This document shows positions 15,111 to 22,383 of a DNA stretch of 64,000 nt, piece after piece (within the stretch, counting starts at the first letter, position 1; each line of letters begins with the position of its first letter). The notes under the pieces were generated by a model, which worked only from the letters and a program-made list of their open reading frames with translations, ran no database searches and was not told the DNA's origin. The DNA lies in NCBI RefSeq assembly GCF_026013565.1, contig NZ_JAPDOB010000002.1, positions 1 through 64,000 on the forward strand. Reading direction: 5' to 3'. The translations under genes and the position numbers were made by a program. This stretch comes from Sphingomonas arvum. Lineage in GTDB: Bacteria > Pseudomonadota > Alphaproteobacteria > Sphingomonadales > Sphingomonadaceae.

Positions 15111-16238
15111 CTACTCGGCGGCTTCGGGCACCAGCGCCTGCGCCGCCTCGATCTCGGCCGCCTTGGCCTCGACCAGCCGGACGATGTGATCGATCATGCC
15201 ATCGTCCTGCACGTGGTGATCTGTGACCCCCGACAGGTAGACCATGTGCCGGCCGTTGCCGCCGCCGGTAATGCCGATGTCCGTCTCGCGCGCCTCGCCC
15301 GGTCCGTTGACGACGCAGCCGAGGACCGACAGCGACATGGGCGTGCGGATATGCTGCAGCCGTTCCTCCAGCCGCTCCACCGTGCGGATCACGTCGAAGC
15401 CCTGACGCGCACAGCTCGGGCAGGAGATCACCCGGACGCCGCGGTTGCGGATGCCAAGCGACTTCAGGATCTCGTAGCCGACCCGCACTTCCTCCTCCGG
15501 CTCGGCCGAGAGCGATACGCGAATGGTGTCGCCGATCCCGCTCCACAGCAGCATGCCCAGGCCCACCGAACTCTTCACCGTGCCACCGATCAGCCCGCCC
15601 GCTTCGGTGATGCCGAGGTGAAGCGGACAGTCGAGCTCGCCCGCGAGCTGCGTGTAGGCGGCGACCGCCAGGAACACGTCGGACGCCTTCACGCTGATCT
15701 TGTATTCGCGAAAGTCATGCTCTTCGAGCAGGCGGACATGGTCCAGCGCGCTTTCAACCAGCGCGTCGGGACAGGGCTCGCCATATTTCTCAAGCAGGTG
15801 CTTCTCCAGGCTGCCCGCGTTGACGCCGATGCGGATGGAGCAGCCGTTGGCCTTGGCGGCGCGGACCACCTCGGCGACCCGCTCGGGCGAGCCGATATTG
15901 CCGGGGTTGATCCGCAGGCAGGCCGCTCCCGCGTCGGCCGCTTCCAGCGCGCGCTTGTAGTGGAAATGGATGTCGGCGACGATCGGCACCTCGGCTGCGC
16001 GCACGATGTCGCGTAGCGCCGCGGTGCTGTCCGCATCCGGGCAAGACACGCGAATGATGTCGACCCCCGCTTCCTCGCAGCGCCGGATCTGGCCGATCGT
16101 CGCGTTGGCGTCGGACGTCGGTGTGTTGGTCATCGTCTGAACGGTAATCGGCGCATCGCCGCCGACGGGGACCTTGCCGACCATGATCTGGCGGGACGGG
16201 CGGCGGTCGATAGTGCGCCAGGGGCGGATCGCGGACAT
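15111..16238 (-). CDS. ispG: 4-hydroxy-3-methylbut-2-enyl diphosphate synthase
   Basis: The 375-residue iron-sulphur enzyme of the MEP isoprenoid pathway, converting MEcPP to HMBPP. The N-terminal TIM-barrel segment ([17 protein letters not shown]) and the C-terminal [4Fe-4S] ligands (CPSCARQG and CVVNGPGEA) are clear. The start at 16238 (MSAIRPW) is preferred to 16322 because homologues begin there. A promoter-like TTGGTT-N17-TATATC ends six bases before this ATG, implying a leaderless or near-leaderless transcript. It is divergent from the TIR operon. Confidence 0.96.
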
Positions 16239-16244
16239 GGGCGC

Positions 16245-16273
16245 GATATAGAGGAGGCGGGTGACAGAACCAA
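16245..16273 (-). promoter_or_regulatory. candidate ispG promoter
   Basis: The minus strand reads TTGGTT (16273-16268), a 17-base spacer, then TATATC (16250-16245). The predicted start falls at or next to the ispG ATG at 16238, so the mRNA would be leaderless. The -10 hexamer resembles the rRNA promoter in this window. Confidence 0.55.
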
Positions 16274-16331
16274 GGCGGGCGAGCGGCGGAAAGCCGCCAT
16301 TGCCGATAGGAGCCCCCTTCATTTTCTGTTA

Positions 16332-18485
16332 TTGCCGCCGCGCAGAGACTCGGGGCCCGACGCAGTGGAAGGATCAGCCGTCCTCAATCGGCAAGGTGCG
16401 GTTCGCTCCCGCCGAGCCGGTCTGCGGCCGCCGTTCGTGCAGCGTTACTGGGCATTCCTCAGCTACAGCCACGTCGACGCGGCCGACGCCGAGTGGCTGC
16501 ACAAGGCGTTGGAAAGTTTCCGGGTGCCGCCCGAACTGGTCGGACGCCGCGCCGAGCGCTTCCTCGTGCCGCGCAAGCTCACCCCCATCTTCCGGGACCG
16601 CAGCGAGCTGGCCGCCTCCAGCGACCTCACCACCGAGATCCGCGAAGCGATCGAATGTTCACGACACCTTATCGTGCTGTGCTCGCCCGCTGCGGCCAAG
16701 AGCCGCTGGGTCAACGAGGAGATCCGCACCTTCAAGCGGCTCCGCCCGGACGGAGAGGTGCTGGCGGCGATCCTCGGGGGCGAGCCGCACGCCACCGACC
16801 CTGACCGGGAGTGTTTCCCGCCGGCGCTGAAAGAGAAGCTGGACGCCCGCGGCCGGCCGACGGGCGAGCCGGCCGAGCCGATCGCCGCCGACCTGCGCGC
16901 GGTGGGTGACGGGCGTGAGGCGGGCCTGCTGAAGCTGGTCGCCGGCATGCTCGATCTCAGGCTGGACGAACTGGTCCAGCGCGACGAGCGGCGGCGGCAG
17001 CGCAAGTGGACGTTGATCAGCGTTGGCTCAGCTGCCGGTATGCTGCTGACCACCGGCCTGGCGGTCACCGCCTTCGACGCCCGGGACGAGGCCCGCGCGC
17101 AGCGCCGCGAGGCCGAGAGCCTGGTCGGCTTCATGATCGGCGATCTGAAGGACAAGCTGGAGCCCGTCGGTCGGTTGGACGCGCTGGACGCGGTCGGCGC
17201 ACGCGTGCTGAGCTACTACGAGAAGCAGGACAAGGCGTCGCTGAGCGACGAGGCACTGGCCCAGCGCAGCCGCGCCCTGACGCTGATGGGCGACATCGCC
17301 CAGCGCCGCGGCGACATGGATGGGGCGCTGCGCCGCTACCGCGAAGGCTTCGTCGGCACGGCCGAAGCATTGCGCCGCGACCCGGCCAACCCGCAGCGCC
17401 TGTTCGACCATGCGCAAAACGTCTTCTGGATCGGCAACATCGCTACCAACCGCGGCGACTATGACGAAGCGGCGCGCTGGTTCGGCGAGTACCGGCGGCT
17501 GGCCGACCGCATGATGGTCCTCGCGCCAACGAATCCCAAGTGGCAACTTGAGGGCGTCTACTCTGCCAGCAACCTTGGGGCGCTGGAACTCAGGCGGCGC
17601 GATTATCGGGCGGCGGTGGCACGGTTCGAGGGCGCCTTGCGTCCCTTGGCCACGCTCCGCCAGCAGGCGCCCGGCGAGCTCGAATATGCCAAGCTGGAGG
17701 TGGAGACCCGCGGCTACCTGGCCGACGCGCTGGAACGCGGCGGCCGGCTTCAGCCAGCGCTCGCCGAACGGTCACGCCAGGTCGGCCTTATTCAACAGCT
17801 GCGACGCCGCAACCCGAACGACTTGGACCTCCAGTCGCGGCTGCTGATCGCGTTACGCTCGGCAGCCCGGGAGCTGAACTCCAGCGGCCAGCGGGACCAG
17901 GCTCTCGCCATGTCGGTGCGCTCCGTCGGCCTGTCCGACAGCCTGCTGCGGACGGAGCCAGGCAACAGCGACTGGCTGGACCGCAGCGCCGGCACCCGGC
18001 TGGACCACGCCGCGCTGCTGATGAAGGCCGGCCGGCTGGACGAGGCGGTCCGCTTCAACGAAGCGGGCTGCGCGGGATCGGCGCGGGTGGCCGGCAAGGA
18101 CCGGGTCGTATTGTGGGCCAAGCACGCGCGCTTGTGCCTTGAGAACCGGGCGCGCCTCAGCCTGGCCGGCGGCAACCGCGGCCAGGCGATGCTCCATGCC
18201 GGGCAGCTGCTTGCCCAGATCCGGACGGAACCGACGGCCGACAGGGTGGAGGACCGTTTCTCGCTCGCAACGGTCGAGATGCTGGTGGGCGACATCGAAA
18301 ACGCGATGGGCGACCGGGCGGCCGCCCGGCGATCCTGGGCCCAGGCACTGGCGCTTTGGCCGAGCGGCGTAGCCGAGACGCCGCGTGAGTTCGCCCGTCA
18401 CCGCGATTTGCTGGATCGGCTGGGCCGCCGCGCGGAGGCGACGGTGATGACGGCACGTCTGCAAGCCATGGGCTGGAAGGACTGA
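16332..18485 (+). CDS. TIR domain protein with membrane helix and TPR region
   Basis: Up to 717 residues, with three parts. A TIR domain (about 39-175) begins YWAFLSYSHVD and carries FRDRSEL (E92 is a candidate catalytic Glu), then LIVLCSPAAAKSRWVNEEI. A single membrane helix spans about 226-248 after a basic stretch. A conserved-looking linker (KLEPVGRLDALDAVG) then leads into a C-terminal TPR-like helical array (about 300-690). Bacterial TIR domains are often NAD-cleaving enzymes or NAD-derived signal generators in phage defence. The start is uncertain: TTG at 16332, GTG at 16365, or GTG at 16437 right before the TIR. It heads a four-gene + strand operon. Confidence 0.85.
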   Translation: MPPRRDSGPDAVEGSAVLNRQGAVRSRRAGLRPPFVQRYWAFLSYSHVDAADAEWLHKALESFRVPPELVGRRAERFLVPRKLTPIFRDRSELAASSDLTTEIREAIECSRHLIVLCSPAAAKSRWVNEEIRTFKRLRPDGEVLAAILGGEPHATDPDRECFPPALKEKLDARGRPTGEPAEPIAADLRAVGDGREAGLLKLVAGMLDLRLDELVQRDERRRQRKWTLISVGSAAGMLLTTGLAVTAFDARDEARAQRREAESLVGFMIGDLKDKLEPVGRLDALDAVGARVLSYYEKQDKASLSDEALAQRSRALTLMGDIAQRRGDMDGALRRYREGFVGTAEALRRDPANPQRLFDHAQNVFWIGNIATNRGDYDEAARWFGEYRRLADRMMVLAPTNPKWQLEGVYSASNLGALELRRRDYRAAVARFEGALRPLATLRQQAPGELEYAKLEVETRGYLADALERGGRLQPALAERSRQVGLIQQLRRRNPNDLDLQSRLLIALRSAARELNSSGQRDQALAMSVRSVGLSDSLLRTEPGNSDWLDRSAGTRLDHAALLMKAGRLDEAVRFNEAGCAGSARVAGKDRVVLWAKHARLCLENRARLSLAGGNRGQAMLHAGQLLAQIRTEPTADRVEDRFSLATVEMLVGDIENAMGDRAAARRSWAQALALWPSGVAETPREFARHRDLLDRLGRRAEATVMTARLQAMGWKD

Positions 18486-18517: not shown

Positions 18518-19006
18518 ATGCAGCAATCGGCCAGTGTGCAGGCGAGGTCCGGAGCGCCCGGCAAGGCGCATCCGGCGCGAGTCGCGGTCGTGGCGACGCC
18601 GGACGGGGACGGGTGGCGCTTCGCCATGCGCCAGGATAGTCAGGCCGTGGACCGGCTCGACTTCAGCAAGGATGCGGCCGGCATGCGCAAGGCCGACTGG
18701 CACGAAATCGACTTCATGCTGGAGGACCCAAGCGGGCGCCTGGCCTTTCCGCGCGACAAATGGGACGCGATCTGGGTCGCCCGGGGAACGGAAACGGAGG
18801 CGCCCGACTGCCCCAGAGCGGCCAGCCGCGACCACGACGTCTATCCCTTGTGGGTCAAGGACAAGGTTCTCCGGGTGTGCAATCGCAATTCCGATCGCTG
18901 CCTCCTGAGCTTCGCACTCAACTTCGTCCCAACCGGCAGCCCCGACGGACCGATCGTCGCCACGCTGGACCCGATCATGGGCAATGGTAACGGCGGTCGG
19001 GCGTGA
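18518..19006 (+). CDS. unknown protein A with C-terminal DPIMGNGNGG motif
   Basis: A 162-residue protein, no family recognised, with no signal peptide or membrane helix. It has a strong ribosome binding site (GAGAGGGGAG) seven bases before the ATG. Segments 'ADWHEIDFMLED', 'LAFPRDKWDAIWV' and 'YPLWVKDKVLRV' alternate hydrophobic residues as in beta strands. The protein ends LDPIMGNGNGG-RA. The next gene encodes a diverged paralogue with the same segment order and the identical terminal motif. It follows the TIR gene by 32 bases, so it is probably in its operon. It could be a sensor, adaptor or substrate of the TIR/SLOG proteins; no function is claimed. Confidence 0.8.
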   Translation: MQQSASVQARSGAPGKAHPARVAVVATPDGDGWRFAMRQDSQAVDRLDFSKDAAGMRKADWHEIDFMLEDPSGRLAFPRDKWDAIWVARGTETEAPDCPRAASRDHDVYPLWVKDKVLRVCNRNSDRCLLSFALNFVPTGSPDGPIVATLDPIMGNGNGGRA

Positions 19007-19032
19007 ACTGACCGAAGGAGGGAGCGCAGGCC

Positions 19033-19644
19033 ATGCCAAAGTTCATGCAGGAACGGCACATCAACGTAGCGGTGAAGTTAGCGGTCGGCGGCGGCTACGA
19101 GATCACGCCCTACGAAGGCAGCAGGAACCTCAAGGACCAGGAACTGGTCTGCAGCAAGGAGCCGAAGACGCACCCGCATGATATCGGTAAGGACGACCTG
19201 TTCAAGGAAGGGTGCCATGTTCTCGTCTTCACGGTGGACAACGATGCCCAAGCTGAGCTGCGCTTCCCCGCGGTGCCGGAAGACGCTTATTGGGCACAGA
19301 AGGTGAACCCGACAGGCACAAGCGGTCCCAAGTCGCCGACGCAAGTCGCCGACGTCGTACCGGTCTGGGTAAGCGACGACGGCCAGCAGCTCATTGTTCT
19401 GAACTTCAATAACAAAGCCAAGCGGATCGGGTACACGCTGCGACTATTGGACAAGAACAACAACCCGCACCTTTGCGACCCGATCATGGGCAACGGCAAC
19501 GGTGGCAAGAGCGCCCCCCAGACCCCATCCCCACTCGTTACCGGATCGCTGATCGCGGGCGCGGGCGCGCTGCTTGGAGGGCTGGGCTATGCGCTGGCGA
19601 GCAGCGCGTCCTTGGGCCCCAAGCGACGGCACCGGCGCAAGTAG
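19033..19644 (+). CDS. unknown protein B, paralogue of A, with C-terminal membrane anchor
   Basis: A 203-residue protein with AAGGAGGG upstream. Its core parallels protein A: 'GCHVLVFTVDND', 'ELRFPAVPEDAYWAQ', 'VVPVWVSDDGQ', and then LCDPIMGNGNGG. Unlike A, it continues through a Pro/Ser linker into one hydrophobic helix (about 168-192) and a very basic tail, KRRHRRK, so it is membrane anchored at its C terminus. No signal peptide is present. It sits 26 bases after A and 4 bases before the SLOG/SLATT-like gene, indicating one operon. The family is unknown to me; the paralogy to A is seen directly. Confidence 0.82.
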   Translation: MPKFMQERHINVAVKLAVGGGYEITPYEGSRNLKDQELVCSKEPKTHPHDIGKDDLFKEGCHVLVFTVDNDAQAELRFPAVPEDAYWAQKVNPTGTSGPKSPTQVADVVPVWVSDDGQQLIVLNFNNKAKRIGYTLRLLDKNNNPHLCDPIMGNGNGGKSAPQTPSPLVTGSLIAGAGALLGGLGYALASSASLGPKRRHRRK

Positions 19645-19648
19645 GTCC

Positions 19649-21433
19649 GTGAGCGGCCCTCCCGCGGTACCGTTCGCCCTGACGGTCGGGATCACCGGGC
19701 ACCGGGCCGAGGCCCTGCCAGCCGCCGCCGCGGTCGAGGCGCGGGTGGCCGCTGTGCTGGAGCGGCTGGAACGGGCCGCGTTCGACCTCCTGAAGCGGGA
19801 AGCCGCGCTGTTCGCGGCGGAACCGCCCTGCCTCACCCTGGTGTCGCCGCTGGCGTCGGGTGCCGATCAGCTGGCGGCACGGATCGCCGTCGAGCGCGGC
19901 TGGGCGCTGCAGGCGGTGCTGCCCCTGCCCCGGCAGTCCTATGCCGCCTCGATGGACCCCGCCGGAGCGGCCGAACTGCAGCGCCTGCTGGAGGCCGCGA
20001 CTTGCGTGCTGGAACTGCCCGGCGATCCTGCAAACCCCACCGACAGCTTCGTTATGGCCGGGCGCGCGACGGTGGCCCACTCCGACCTGCTGCTGGCGGT
20101 GTGGGACGGGCTGCCGGCCCGCGGGCGCGGCGGCACGGCCGAGACCGTCGACCTGGCGCTGCTGCGCGGCACGCCCATCCTGCACTTGCCGATCGAGTCC
20201 GACCAGCCTTCGCGCCTGCTGTGGAGCGGGTTCGACCCGGTGGTGATCAGCGCACCCGGCGACCATCACTGCGGCCGCCCGGACGAGGAGGCGGAGCTGC
20301 ACCGCGTGCTCGCCGCCTTGCTGGCGCCGCCGCCGAACCCGCGCGAACGCCAGTTCATCCAGCGCTACCTGGTGGAGCGCGAACGCAAGCTTCGCCTGCG
20401 GCTCGAATATCCGTTACTAATGACGCTCGCCGGCGCGCACCGCATCTCGCGCAAGGACGTCAACGCCCGGCTCGGAGTGGAGGCAGCCCGCAACGAGTGG
20501 CTTGAATATCGCCAGCGCTGCGCTGGTTGCCACGGGGTGGATGCGCCGCTCGATGCGCTGCAACAGGCGTATGAGTGGAGCGACCGGCTGGCCACCCACT
20601 TCGCCCAGACCTACCGGTCGAGCCATGTGTTCAACTTTCTGCTTGCCGCGCTTGGTGCGCTGATCGGCCTGTCGGGGCTGGTGTTCCAGGGTAACCCATT
20701 CGAGCTGGCGATCGCCGAGTTCGCGGTGGTGCTGGCGGTGATCGTCAATACCCAGACCGGCTCGTCCAGTTGCTGGCACCAGCGCTGGCTCGATTATCGC
20801 CAACTCGCCGAGCGGCTGCGACCGATGCGCAGCCTGAAATTGCTTGGGCTGGCCGCGCCCGATCCGCCGGGCAGCCCGGCCGAGCCGATCGCCCGCCGGT
20901 GGATCGACTGGTATGCGGCGGCGATGTGGCGCACGATCGGCTGCCCCGGTGGCCGACTTCAGCCAGCCGACGTCCCGCGCCTGGCGGAAGCGATCGCAGA
21001 GCGCGAGCTGGAGCCGCAGATTGCCTACAACCGGCGCACGGGGGCGCAGATGGCCGCCTTTGATCAGCGGCTCGAATGGGTGGCGCTGGCCATTTTCGGC
21101 ACCACGCTGGCAATCACCTTCGCCACGATCCTGTGCCTGCTGTTCGCGCCGCAGCTGCTGAAGTCGGCCGGAAACTGGACCACCGTCCTGTCCGCCGGGC
21201 TGCCCGCGGTCGGCACCGCCATCTTCGGCATCCGGGTACAAGGCGATTATGGCGCGCTGTCGGCCCGCTCGCGACATACAGCGGACCAGCTGCAGCGGAT
21301 CGCGACCGACCTCACCCGCGCGCGCGACCTGCCGCGCACCGCCGATCTTACCGAGCAGGCCGCGCGGGTGATGCTGGCCGACCTTGGCGAATGGCGGCTG
21401 GTCAACGAGCTTCACGAATTGTCGCTGGGCTGA
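19649..21433 (+). CDS. SLOG-like nucleotide-binding plus four-helix membrane (SLATT-like) protein
   Basis: A 594-residue protein from a GTG start at 19649, 4 bases after the upstream stop. The N-terminal Rossmann-like domain has VGITGHR (about 13-19), SPLASGADQLAA (66-77) and AHSDLLLAVWDG (143-154), the pattern of SLOG/LOG-DprA-type nucleotide-binding domains. The C-terminal half has two pairs of membrane helices (about 329-346, 352-367, 476-499, 513-528). A long charged cytosolic segment separates the pairs, and a further helical segment follows, as in SLATT effectors. In published genome-context work SLOG and SLATT modules belong to nucleotide-sensing conflict systems in which the membrane module is thought to perturb the membrane. 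Domain calls are by eye. Confidence 0.75.
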   Translation: MSGPPAVPFALTVGITGHRAEALPAAAAVEARVAAVLERLERAAFDLLKREAALFAAEPPCLTLVSPLASGADQLAARIAVERGWALQAVLPLPRQSYAASMDPAGAAELQRLLEAATCVLELPGDPANPTDSFVMAGRATVAHSDLLLAVWDGLPARGRGGTAETVDLALLRGTPILHLPIESDQPSRLLWSGFDPVVISAPGDHHCGRPDEEAELHRVLAALLAPPPNPRERQFIQRYLVERERKLRLRLEYPLLMTLAGAHRISRKDVNARLGVEAARNEWLEYRQRCAGCHGVDAPLDALQQAYEWSDRLATHFAQTYRSSHVFNFLLAALGALIGLSGLVFQGNPFELAIAEFAVVLAVIVNTQTGSSSCWHQRWLDYRQLAERLRPMRSLKLLGLAAPDPPGSPAEPIARRWIDWYAAAMWRTIGCPGGRLQPADVPRLAEAIAERELEPQIAYNRRTGAQMAAFDQRLEWVALAIFGTTLAITFATILCLLFAPQLLKSAGNWTTVLSAGLPAVGTAIFGIRVQGDYGALSARSRHTADQLQRIATDLTRARDLPRTADLTEQAARVMLADLGEWRLVNELHELSLG

Positions 21434-21453: not shown

Positions 21454-22383
21454 GTGCCGATCCTCCGCTTGCTTGCCGCGCTGTGCGCGCTTGTCGCCGC
21501 CGTTCCCGCCAACGCTTACTGGGAATATGGCCACCAGACCGTCGCTGCGGTCGCCTGGGAGTCGGTCAAGCCGGAAACCCGCCGGCAGATACAGGCACTG
21601 CTCAGACAAGGCGCGCTGCTGCAGACGCCGACCTGCCCCACCCGCACGCTGGAGGAAGCCAGCGTTTGGGCCGACTGCATCAAGCCAATGGGCGACCGCT
21701 TCAGCTACCAGTCGAGCTGGCATTACCAGAACGTCAACGTATGCAGGCCGTTCAGCCTCAAGGAGGCGTGCAAGGACGGCAACTGCGTCTCGGCGCAGAT
21801 CGACCGCAACGCCCGACTGTTGGCCGACAAGAGCCTGCCAGTGCGGGAGCGGATTATGGCGCTGGCCTTCCTGACGCACTTCGTTGGCGACCTGGCGCAA
21901 CCGATGCACGCCGGCGACCGCGGCGATCTCGGCGGCAACCAGGTCGCGGCCAACTACGGCGCGATCGGCGGCCGTACCAACCTTCATTCGATTTGGGACG
22001 GCTGGCTTCCGGAACGGGCGATCACCACCGGGCCGGCGGCGCGTTCCGGCGGCGCCAACAACCTCAGCCTGCCCCAACGGGCGCGCGAGCTGATCGCCGA
22101 AGTACCGGCCGGTGAGCGCGCGGTGCTGGTCGGCGGCACGGTTGCCGATTGGAGCCGCCAGAGTTGGGAGAATGCGCGCACCCTAGCTTACGCCTCCTTG
22201 ATCGGTGATCCGTGCGGGCCGTTGCCGAAGGAGCGGCCAACCCTGACCGAGGCCAGGGTGGAGGAGCTGATCGCGCCGGTGCGGCGTCAGGTCACCGCCG
22301 GTGGCCTGCGCCTCGCGCGGCTGCTCGACGATGCGCTGCTGGAGGGCAAGTCCCCGCAACCGCCCAAGCGCGGCGGCAACTAG
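21454..22383 (+). CDS. secreted S1/P1-type nuclease
   Basis: A 309-residue protein from a GTG start, with a signal peptide (MPILRLLAALCALVAAVPANA). The zinc-ligand pattern of the S1/P1 nuclease and phospholipase C fold is present: YWEYGHQTV at the mature N terminus, HFVGDLAQPMHAGDRGDLGGN and NLHSIWDGWL. Members are zinc-dependent single-strand nucleases/3'-nucleotidases acting outside the cytoplasm. It begins 20 bases after the SLOG/SLATT gene, so it may be cotranscribed, but its export argues against a direct role in a cytosolic TIR system. The start is inferred from the signal peptide. Confidence 0.85.
   Translation: MPILRLLAALCALVAAVPANAYWEYGHQTVAAVAWESVKPETRRQIQALLRQGALLQTPTCPTRTLEEASVWADCIKPMGDRFSYQSSWHYQNVNVCRPFSLKEACKDGNCVSAQIDRNARLLADKSLPVRERIMALAFLTHFVGDLAQPMHAGDRGDLGGNQVAANYGAIGGRTNLHSIWDGWLPERAITTGPAARSGGANNLSLPQRARELIAEVPAGERAVLVGGTVADWSRQSWENARTLAYASLIGDPCGPLPKERPTLTEARVEELIAPVRRQVTAGGLRLARLLDDALLEGKSPQPPKRGGN

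Follow-up and report, generated by a model that had tools for sequence, protein, structure and literature searches.

The Shewanella oneidensis protein SO1698, a beta-sandwich member of the DP-EP family (Pfam PF08985) with PDB entries for the wild type (3n55) and mutants, is the closest described relative of the two proteins analyzed here. In a 2012 J Biol Chem study, SO1698 was reportedly found to be self-assembling and to cleave itself between Asp116 and Pro117. The lengths of the deposited chains agree with this account: PDB chains end at Asp116 in the wild type, Y26F, K98A, P115A, and Q118A (119 residues with the tag), and run on (128 residues) in D37A, S114A, D116A, and P117A. No biological role for DP-EP/SO1698 was found in the literature searched, where most subscription papers were outside reach. 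The names SO1698, DP-EP family, and pNTSase1 were not found there, and DUF1888 was named in one unrelated work, as far as the accessible text goes.

Three further described groups bear on the genes around these proteins. Thoeris combines a TIR protein (ThsB) with a SIR2-SLOG protein (ThsA). pNTSase1 (PF20301), a predicted novel nucleotide synthetase, resembles our proteins in its gene position behind a TIR-TM-TPR gene and in a C-terminal DPD; its function is itself a prediction. SLATT proteins are predicted to be pore formers responsive to nucleotide signals (PMC7159879), a prediction also made with ADP-ribose derivatives (PMC9503650). Since PF20301 already names a branch at the same position, part of this gene neighborhood is known. 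The link to SO1698 and the matching of C-terminal tails, which is the surprising part, were not met in the accessible parts of the literature searched.

Here we analyze two adjacent genes in a window of 64,000 nucleotides, the whole stretch studied, from Sphingomonas arvum. Their products, P1 and P2, share the motif DPIMGNGNGG. We propose, with a probability of about 0.5, that they are regulators and the variable parts of a TIR-TM-TPR/SLOG-SLATT signaling cassette, perhaps one of defence, with a tail that serves as a recognition peptide specific to the cassette.

Organization of the cassette and its distribution

Table 1 Cassette genes, motif positions, and flanking genes in the window
Feature	Position	Strand	Remarks
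ispG (GcpE)	15111-16322		Divergent, upstream of cassette
TIR-TM-TPR gene	16332..18485	+	717 aa from the called start codon, which is uncertain; TIR from about residue 38
P1, DP-motif beta-sandwich protein without membrane tail	18518..19006	+	ORF, 162 aa; C-terminus DPIMGNGNGGRA
DPIMGNGNGG codons in P1	18968..18997	+	
P2, DP-motif protein with C-terminal hydrophobic tail	19033..19644	+	ORF, 203 aa
DPIMGNGNGG codons in P2	19477..19506	+	4/10 codons synonymously different from P1
Hydrophobic tail segment of P2, then basic end	19534..19602	+	From sequence and tail analysis
SLOG-like + SLATT membrane protein	19649..21433	+	GTG start taken; longest ORF from 19574
S1/P1 nuclease gene	21466-22383		Directly after cassette

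The TIR protein matches Pfam TIR_2 (5.9e-12) and ThsB_TIR (8e-9), both above their cut-offs, and several TPR models below theirs. A hydrophobic peak at residue 227 is preceded by RRRQRK. Glu130 in WVNEE, invariant in 8/8 aligned relatives, is presumably the catalytic Glu. The last gene of the cassette matches NCBIfam SLATT_1 (1.4e-14), Pfam DUF4231 (1.6e-5), PADLOC ShosA (3.9e-4), and, weakly, a DprA-like model. The pairing of a TIR protein with a SLOG-like partner is shared with Thoeris. The cassette differs from Thoeris in the TM-TPR part of its TIR protein, in SLATT in place of SIR2, and in the additional DP proteins; the neighbor is not a ThsA of the SIR2-SLOG or TM-macro type, and no Thoeris model was among the PADLOC matches at E ≤ 1.

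When P2 was searched against 100 related genomes, matches were obtained in 13, its own included, all of the same genus. The genus cassettes contain one or two very divergent DP genes. At the end of their products, DP is followed by a few variable residues, usually by Asn, and frequently by a stretch rich in Gly; loci with a single DP gene are numerous and retain the motif. The motif table leaves out one ORF without the pattern (L136, DPIIIHT). The order TIR-TPR, one or two DP genes, SLATT was found in 31 loci among the genus stretches fetched at length, and a SLATT gene is present in 50/71 genus genomes. Three loci (L019, L121, and L122) have TIR-TPR and DP genes only, and three others (L070, L072, and L073) have TIR-TPR, SLATT, and a small DP-tail gene that the profile missed. 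In thirteen loci whose SLATT gene is divergent, the stretch lacks a TIR-TM-TPR gene; these are the divergent SLOG-SLATT genes of L059-L066, L068, L069, L071, L074, and L076, and in L061, L062, and L071 another ORF just upstream has a weak TIR match. An orphan DP gene (L020, 8925-9410; DPIINNRDGG) has neither TIR-TPR nor SLATT in its stretch; the main cassette of the same genome, G060, has the different tail DPVITNGGKT (L078). Among plasmid sequences, P2 had no match, and the TIR-TPR protein had matches in four records, none covering 80% of the query. P2 alone against a collection of genome contigs gave no confirmed relative.

ispG is present at 32/33 genus loci that carry a DP gene. This fixed position, unlike that of many defence genes or of a mobile defence island, counts against the preferred reading. 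By eye, a gene similar to the S1/P1 nuclease gene also lies beside the cassette in L018, L019, L121, and L122.

Relation of P1 and P2 to each other and to SO1698

P1 and P2 align over 118 columns with 31% identity (BLASTP, E 3e-11), and DPIMGNGNGG is aligned on itself. The divergent paralogy proposed in the sequence-only reading is thereby borne out, and the ordered pattern described there (L.FP, DA.W, and P.WV, followed by the motif) can be traced in the same alignment. As also noted there, one protein stops at the motif and the other continues: P1 ends two residues past it, and P2 runs on through a linker and a hydrophobic stretch to GPKRRHRRK. The worry that the motif is a low-complexity coincidence can be set aside, since the back-translated motif with ≤3 mismatches is found at just two places in the 2.75 Mb genome, and its reversed control at none. 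In an alignment of 41 genus members, Met1, Pro99, Asp149, Pro150, and Asn154 (P2 numbering) are invariant. The last three are the Asp, the Pro, and the first Asn of the motif. The C-terminal element looks functional, as the sequence-only reading suggested. Outside the tail, conservation in ≥90% of the 41 rows is limited to Met1, Pro99, Phe78, and Asn126.

The same alignment bears on the loop for calcium, another metal, or a nucleotide that the sequence-only reading considered for the motif. Its Asp, Asn, and Gly content would suit such a loop, but only Asp, Pro, and one Asn of the motif are invariant, and the Gly-rich part varies across the genus and is missing in several members (DPIIKNIA, DPIIIRD). 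In the models, moreover, the motif lies on two paired strands at the end of the beta-sandwich, with Asp-Pro on Asp116-Pro117 of SO1698. We dropped the loop on account of the unconserved Gly-rich part and the strand pair, and consider it extremely improbable.

At E ≤ 1, neither protein is matched by any model of Pfam, NCBIfam, or PADLOC. This includes PF08985, which reaches one of the 41 genus members at 0.059. The earlier statement that no described domain has this signature thus stands for sequence models; it fails for profile and fold comparison, which put both proteins beside SO1698. A profile of the 41 genus members against all PDB sequences (E ≤ 5) retrieved only SO1698 entries (E 0.005 to 0.4 for 8 distinct sequences) and aligned Asp-Pro exactly with Asp116-Pro117. 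When the genus family was compared by hhalign with a set of 15 DP-EP proteins encoded in other genomes, the result was 96.9% and E 1.4e-10 over 115 columns. DPxxxN is invariant in 41/41 genus rows and in the 15 aligned DP-EP rows; the sixteenth DP-EP gene (L146), which the search pattern overlooked and which was left out of the DP-EP alignment, has the tail DPQVIC.

AlphaFold models were obtained with a pLDDT of 90.4 and a pTM of 0.83 for P1, and with a mean pLDDT of 72.4 for P2, where blocks within residues 61-150 are mostly at 88-97. In Foldseek searches of the PDB, the first 11 matches for each protein were SO1698 and its mutants (E 1.5e-6 to 2e-4 for P2; 4.6e-6 to 1.8e-3 for P1). VIA-align superposed the P2 model on SO1698 3njh_C (Z 11.7, rmsd 2.5, 118 residues) and the P1 model on 3nji and 3njk (Z 12.7, rmsd 2.5, 115-117 residues), with P2 Asp149 and P1 Asp151 on SO1698 Asp116 to within one residue. 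MakC/MakD (Z about 10) and PixA (PF12306; Z about 8) follow, and the remaining rows are below 7.6; these structures are similar beta-sandwiches, compared by fold alone, and farther than SO1698 (11.7-12.7). A viral fold library gave three matches to the P1 model at E ≤ 0.001 with low TM-scores, which were not used.

P1 and P2 are thus, as modeled, beta-sandwich proteins distantly related to DP-EP/SO1698, with which they share the C-terminal DPxxxN and a gene directly behind that of a TM-TPR receptor. They differ from DP-EP proteins in the membrane tail of P2, in the missing Pfam-level match, and in the residue two before the Asp. The latter is Ser (Ser114 in SO1698) in the 15 aligned DP-EP rows and in L146, Thr in P1, and Leu in P2. 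Since there is no Pfam match and Ser114, needed for SO1698 cleavage, is absent, we do not claim DP-EP membership.

Matching of tails within a locus

The proteins of loci with two DP genes were compared at the variable tail positions +3, +4, +5, +7, +8, and +9. Across 13 genus loci, tail agreement was 0.78 within a locus and 0.37 across loci (p ≤ 1e-5, 100,000 permutations; with a small sample of related loci, the p-values are guides), and the rest of the domain gave 0.279 within versus 0.261 across (p 0.08; by alignment score, p 0.002). A set of 17 loci, all with two DP genes behind one receptor, was made up of these 13, L119, and, from other taxa, L178, L197, and L210, which carry DPKIRNP, DPKVQNGGVGNR, and DPAIKNKGHP, respectively, twice each. 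Tail agreement here was 0.784 within and 0.300 across (p ≤ 1e-5), and positions +3 to +5 were identical in 11/17 loci versus 0.040 across; the 13-locus figure is the less selected one, because the three added loci were picked up by their look-alike tails. The values before Asp-Pro were 0.18 within versus 0.12 across at -1 and 0.06 versus 0.06 at -2; after it, they were 0.88 versus 0.35 at +4, 0.76 versus 0.14 at +5, and 0.88 versus 0.29 at +7. The matching begins sharply at Asp-Pro. Over the whole domain, agreement is slightly higher within the 17 loci as well (0.292 versus 0.251, p 0.0004), which counts against the preferred reading.

The set of 17 excludes L116, since both of its DP genes have a receptor gene of their own; when L116 and L119 are added to the 13 genus loci, agreement is 0.72 within and 0.33 across. 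Exceptions to the matching are L119, a true exception, L027, L141, and the two DP-EP genes of genome G501, which agree by eye at 3/6 tail positions and stand outside the test. L116 (7819-13175) has tandem TIR-TM-TPR genes, each followed by its own DP gene, and the tails differ (DPKIINKTIK, DPVIRDRVNG); these are natural side-by-side cassettes. In L197 (2079-3536; Marinicaulis), both DP genes have lipoprotein-like starts, and the last twelve residues are the same in the two, with synonymous changes at several codons.

A tree of 47 genus proteins with the motif removed draws 0/13 locus pairs as sisters, with 15/44 inner branches without resolution. Among 15 members with a well-supported nearest relative, the tail is closer to that of the locus partner in 11, tied in 2, and closer to that of the sister in 2. 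P1, for example, has the first gene of L018 as its sister (100/98); both L018 genes have DPIMNNQNGG, and P1 and P2 have DPIMGNGNGG. Common ancestry does not explain the tail matching.

The matching might instead be a functionless trace of repeated gene conversion between neighbors. Identical codons are somewhat commoner within the 13 genus loci (65/98 shared residues) than across them (459/810), with Met and Trp left out and invariant positions included. However, 33/98 shared residues use different codons, the codons of the identical tails differ synonymously at several places in the three loci from other taxa, and the nucleotides just upstream are no more alike within loci (identity 0.318) than across them (0.331). 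The codon counts make it unlikely that recent gene conversion alone accounts for the matching, and we regard this explanation as very improbable.

Which partner might read the tail was approached through 29 loci (405 locus pairs). Motif distance did not correlate with TIR, TPR, or SLOG divergence (rho 0.07-0.11, p 0.10-0.19) and correlated weakly with that of SLATT (rho 0.14, p 0.04, uncorrected for four tests). Since the motif distance barely tracks any of these parts, no tail reader is singled out, which also counts against the preferred reading.

Association with TM-TPR receptor genes

PF08985 genes occur in 6/398 genomes of the phylum and in 15/148 genomes of one order, the six included, with 16 genes. 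A TM-TPR homologue lies directly upstream in 15/15 genomes. The profile used to detect it was trained on eight proteins, all from sphingomonads, and these partners match at E 4e-32 or better, except at the second G501 copy, where the stretch is cut. The start of this second copy resembles a Sec-type signal peptide. TIR proteins had been considered as the DP-EP partners, but Pfam gave Trans_reg_C-nSTAND1 instead: the six partners scanned (L108-L113) are Trans_reg_C-nSTAND1 + TPR proteins. The receptor head is thus TIR at the P1/P2 cassette and wHTH-nSTAND1 at the DP-EP genes (6/6 scanned). The TIR-TPR protein of the window aligned with the nSTAND1 partners (BLASTP, E 8e-26 to 4e-32) only over TM and TPR, within residues 191-575. 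Since the heads differ, the common partner part is TM + TPR.

For a test independent of the DP genes, genome contigs were scanned with TIR-TM-TPR proteins and the best 80 of at least 457 relatives were taken, a best-scoring sample that favors close relatives. Three were too short downstream, leaving 77 usable loci. An ORF with a strict DPxxx[ND] tail lies directly downstream in 56/77 of these loci (from the best 80 of at least 457), one with a relaxed tail in 10/77, and none in 11/77. In the background of other ORFs of the same loci, strict tails occur in 11/482 and relaxed ones in 8/482. The coding filter was stricter for the background (bias over 0.15, 90-330 aa) than for the downstream ORFs (bias over 0); under the background filter, the downstream strict tails number 51/77 (from the best 80 of at least 457) versus 11/482. 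Among the taxa with strict-tail loci are Sphingomonadales, Caulobacter, Lysobacter, Dokdonella, Rhodanobacter, and Rhizobacter, and a Maricaulis isolate (L202) has a relaxed DP tail. A SLATT gene is present in 26/77 usable loci of the best 80 of at least 457.

The 11/77 loci without a DP tail by this rule, in the best 80 of at least 457, count against the preferred reading. Five of them were kept in this count: in L200 the TIR-TPR gene is split and DPEFKNGGT follows at some distance, the DPEFKNEG of L174 belongs to an ORF rejected by the coding filter, and L175, L180, and L205 have altered tails, in which the Asp of Asp-Pro is replaced with His, Gly, or Glu and the residues after it stay similar.

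The branch at the same gene position raises another explanation, namely that the DP family is an enzyme making a nucleotide messenger, as the Pfam name pNTSase1 suggests. PF20301 matches the downstream proteins in L204, L216, L228, and L186 and occurs in 6/59 family genomes, in 6/6 directly behind the TM-TPR gene, and the proteins of this branch carry a C-terminal DPD or DPDV/DPDI. On the other hand, PF20301 does not match P1 or P2 (E ≤ 1), hhalign of four pNTSase1 members against the genus family was not significant, and no catalytic set is visible beyond the tail in the 41-row alignment. We consider such an enzymatic role highly improbable.

Possible roles of the DP proteins

In the preferred reading, the TIR protein would make an NAD-derived signal, which the SLOG-SLATT protein would sense and answer by acting on the membrane, possibly as a pore. 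The DP proteins may contact the TPR part and restrain or trigger the TIR-TM-TPR receptor, P1 probably in soluble form and P2 at the membrane. The peptide after the invariant Asp-Pro (here PIMGNGNGG) would be a cassette-specific docking element, and the need to be read by the same partner would keep the two tails of a cassette alike. Such a role makes a sharp recognition prediction, in that a ten-residue swap between cassettes should change the receptor that responds. For DP-EP/SO1698, which has a structure and a proposed self-cleaving chemistry, the constant place behind TM-TPR genes offers a testable role, and the TM-TPR receptors of DP genes carry two unrelated cytoplasmic heads, TIR and wHTH-nSTAND1.

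The matching tails could also reflect a fit of P1 and P2 with each other. The two proteins would then co-assemble via the C-terminal strand, by strand exchange or sheet extension, and P2 would anchor the assembly in the membrane. The tail is the last strand in both models, the matching is between paralogues and does not track receptor divergence, and SO1698 itself is reportedly self-assembling. The many loci with a single DP gene, however, keep the motif all the same, and we find co-assembly a rather unlikely account, if a serious rival of the preferred one.

A further possibility is that P1 and P2 cut themselves at Asp-Pro, as is thought for SO1698, which would split off PIMGNGNGG(RA) from P1 and detach the domain of P2 from its anchor in the membrane. 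In the alignments, Asp-Pro falls on Asp116-Pro117 (structurally within one residue), the SO1698 chains stop at Asp116 in the wild type and four mutants but run on in D37A, S114A, D116A, and P117A, and the tail matching starts exactly at Asp-Pro. The place of Asp37, on the other hand, has a consensus Lys in the genus profile, in what is a remote alignment and at a place that varies among DP-EP proteins too, and L175, L180, and L205 carry His-Pro, Gly-Pro, or Glu-Pro instead of Asp-Pro. With the Ser missing in P1 and P2, and the Asp37 place perhaps altered as well, cleavage is not to be assumed for these proteins and seems to us unlikely, although it too is a serious rival of the preferred reading. 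An extension of the preferred reading, about which we are similarly skeptical, combines both ideas: the DP tail, exposed or released by self-cutting at Asp-Pro, would be a private peptide password accepted only by the TIR- or nSTAND-headed TM-TPR receptor of its own cassette. If this were true, neighboring or foreign cassettes could work without cross-talk, and the DP-EP fold would be the ligand half of a widespread bacterial receptor family.

The membrane topology bears on where tail and receptor could meet. The TIR, wHTH, and nSTAND heads must be cytoplasmic; given a single TM helix preceded by basic residues, the TPR part would come to lie outside. Fifteen of 56 members have a tail helix, with basic residues mostly after it, an arrangement that would place the DP domain outside as well. 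In P2 and the 14 other tail-anchored members, the motif is internal, which counts against the preferred reading. So does the observation that P1, P2, and most other DP proteins have no signal peptide by eye, if a single-pass topology puts the TPR part outside the cytoplasm. A C-terminal sorting signal (GG, helix, basic tail), which P2 resembles, was considered and rejected as a general rule in view of the 15/56 count; most members without a tail helix terminate within about 20 residues past the motif. Disulfides were also considered as evidence for export, but gave no signal: of 41 members, 21 have an even number of cysteines and 20 an odd one. By eye, an export signal is seen in L102, and lipoboxes are seen in L025, L028, and both DP genes of L197.
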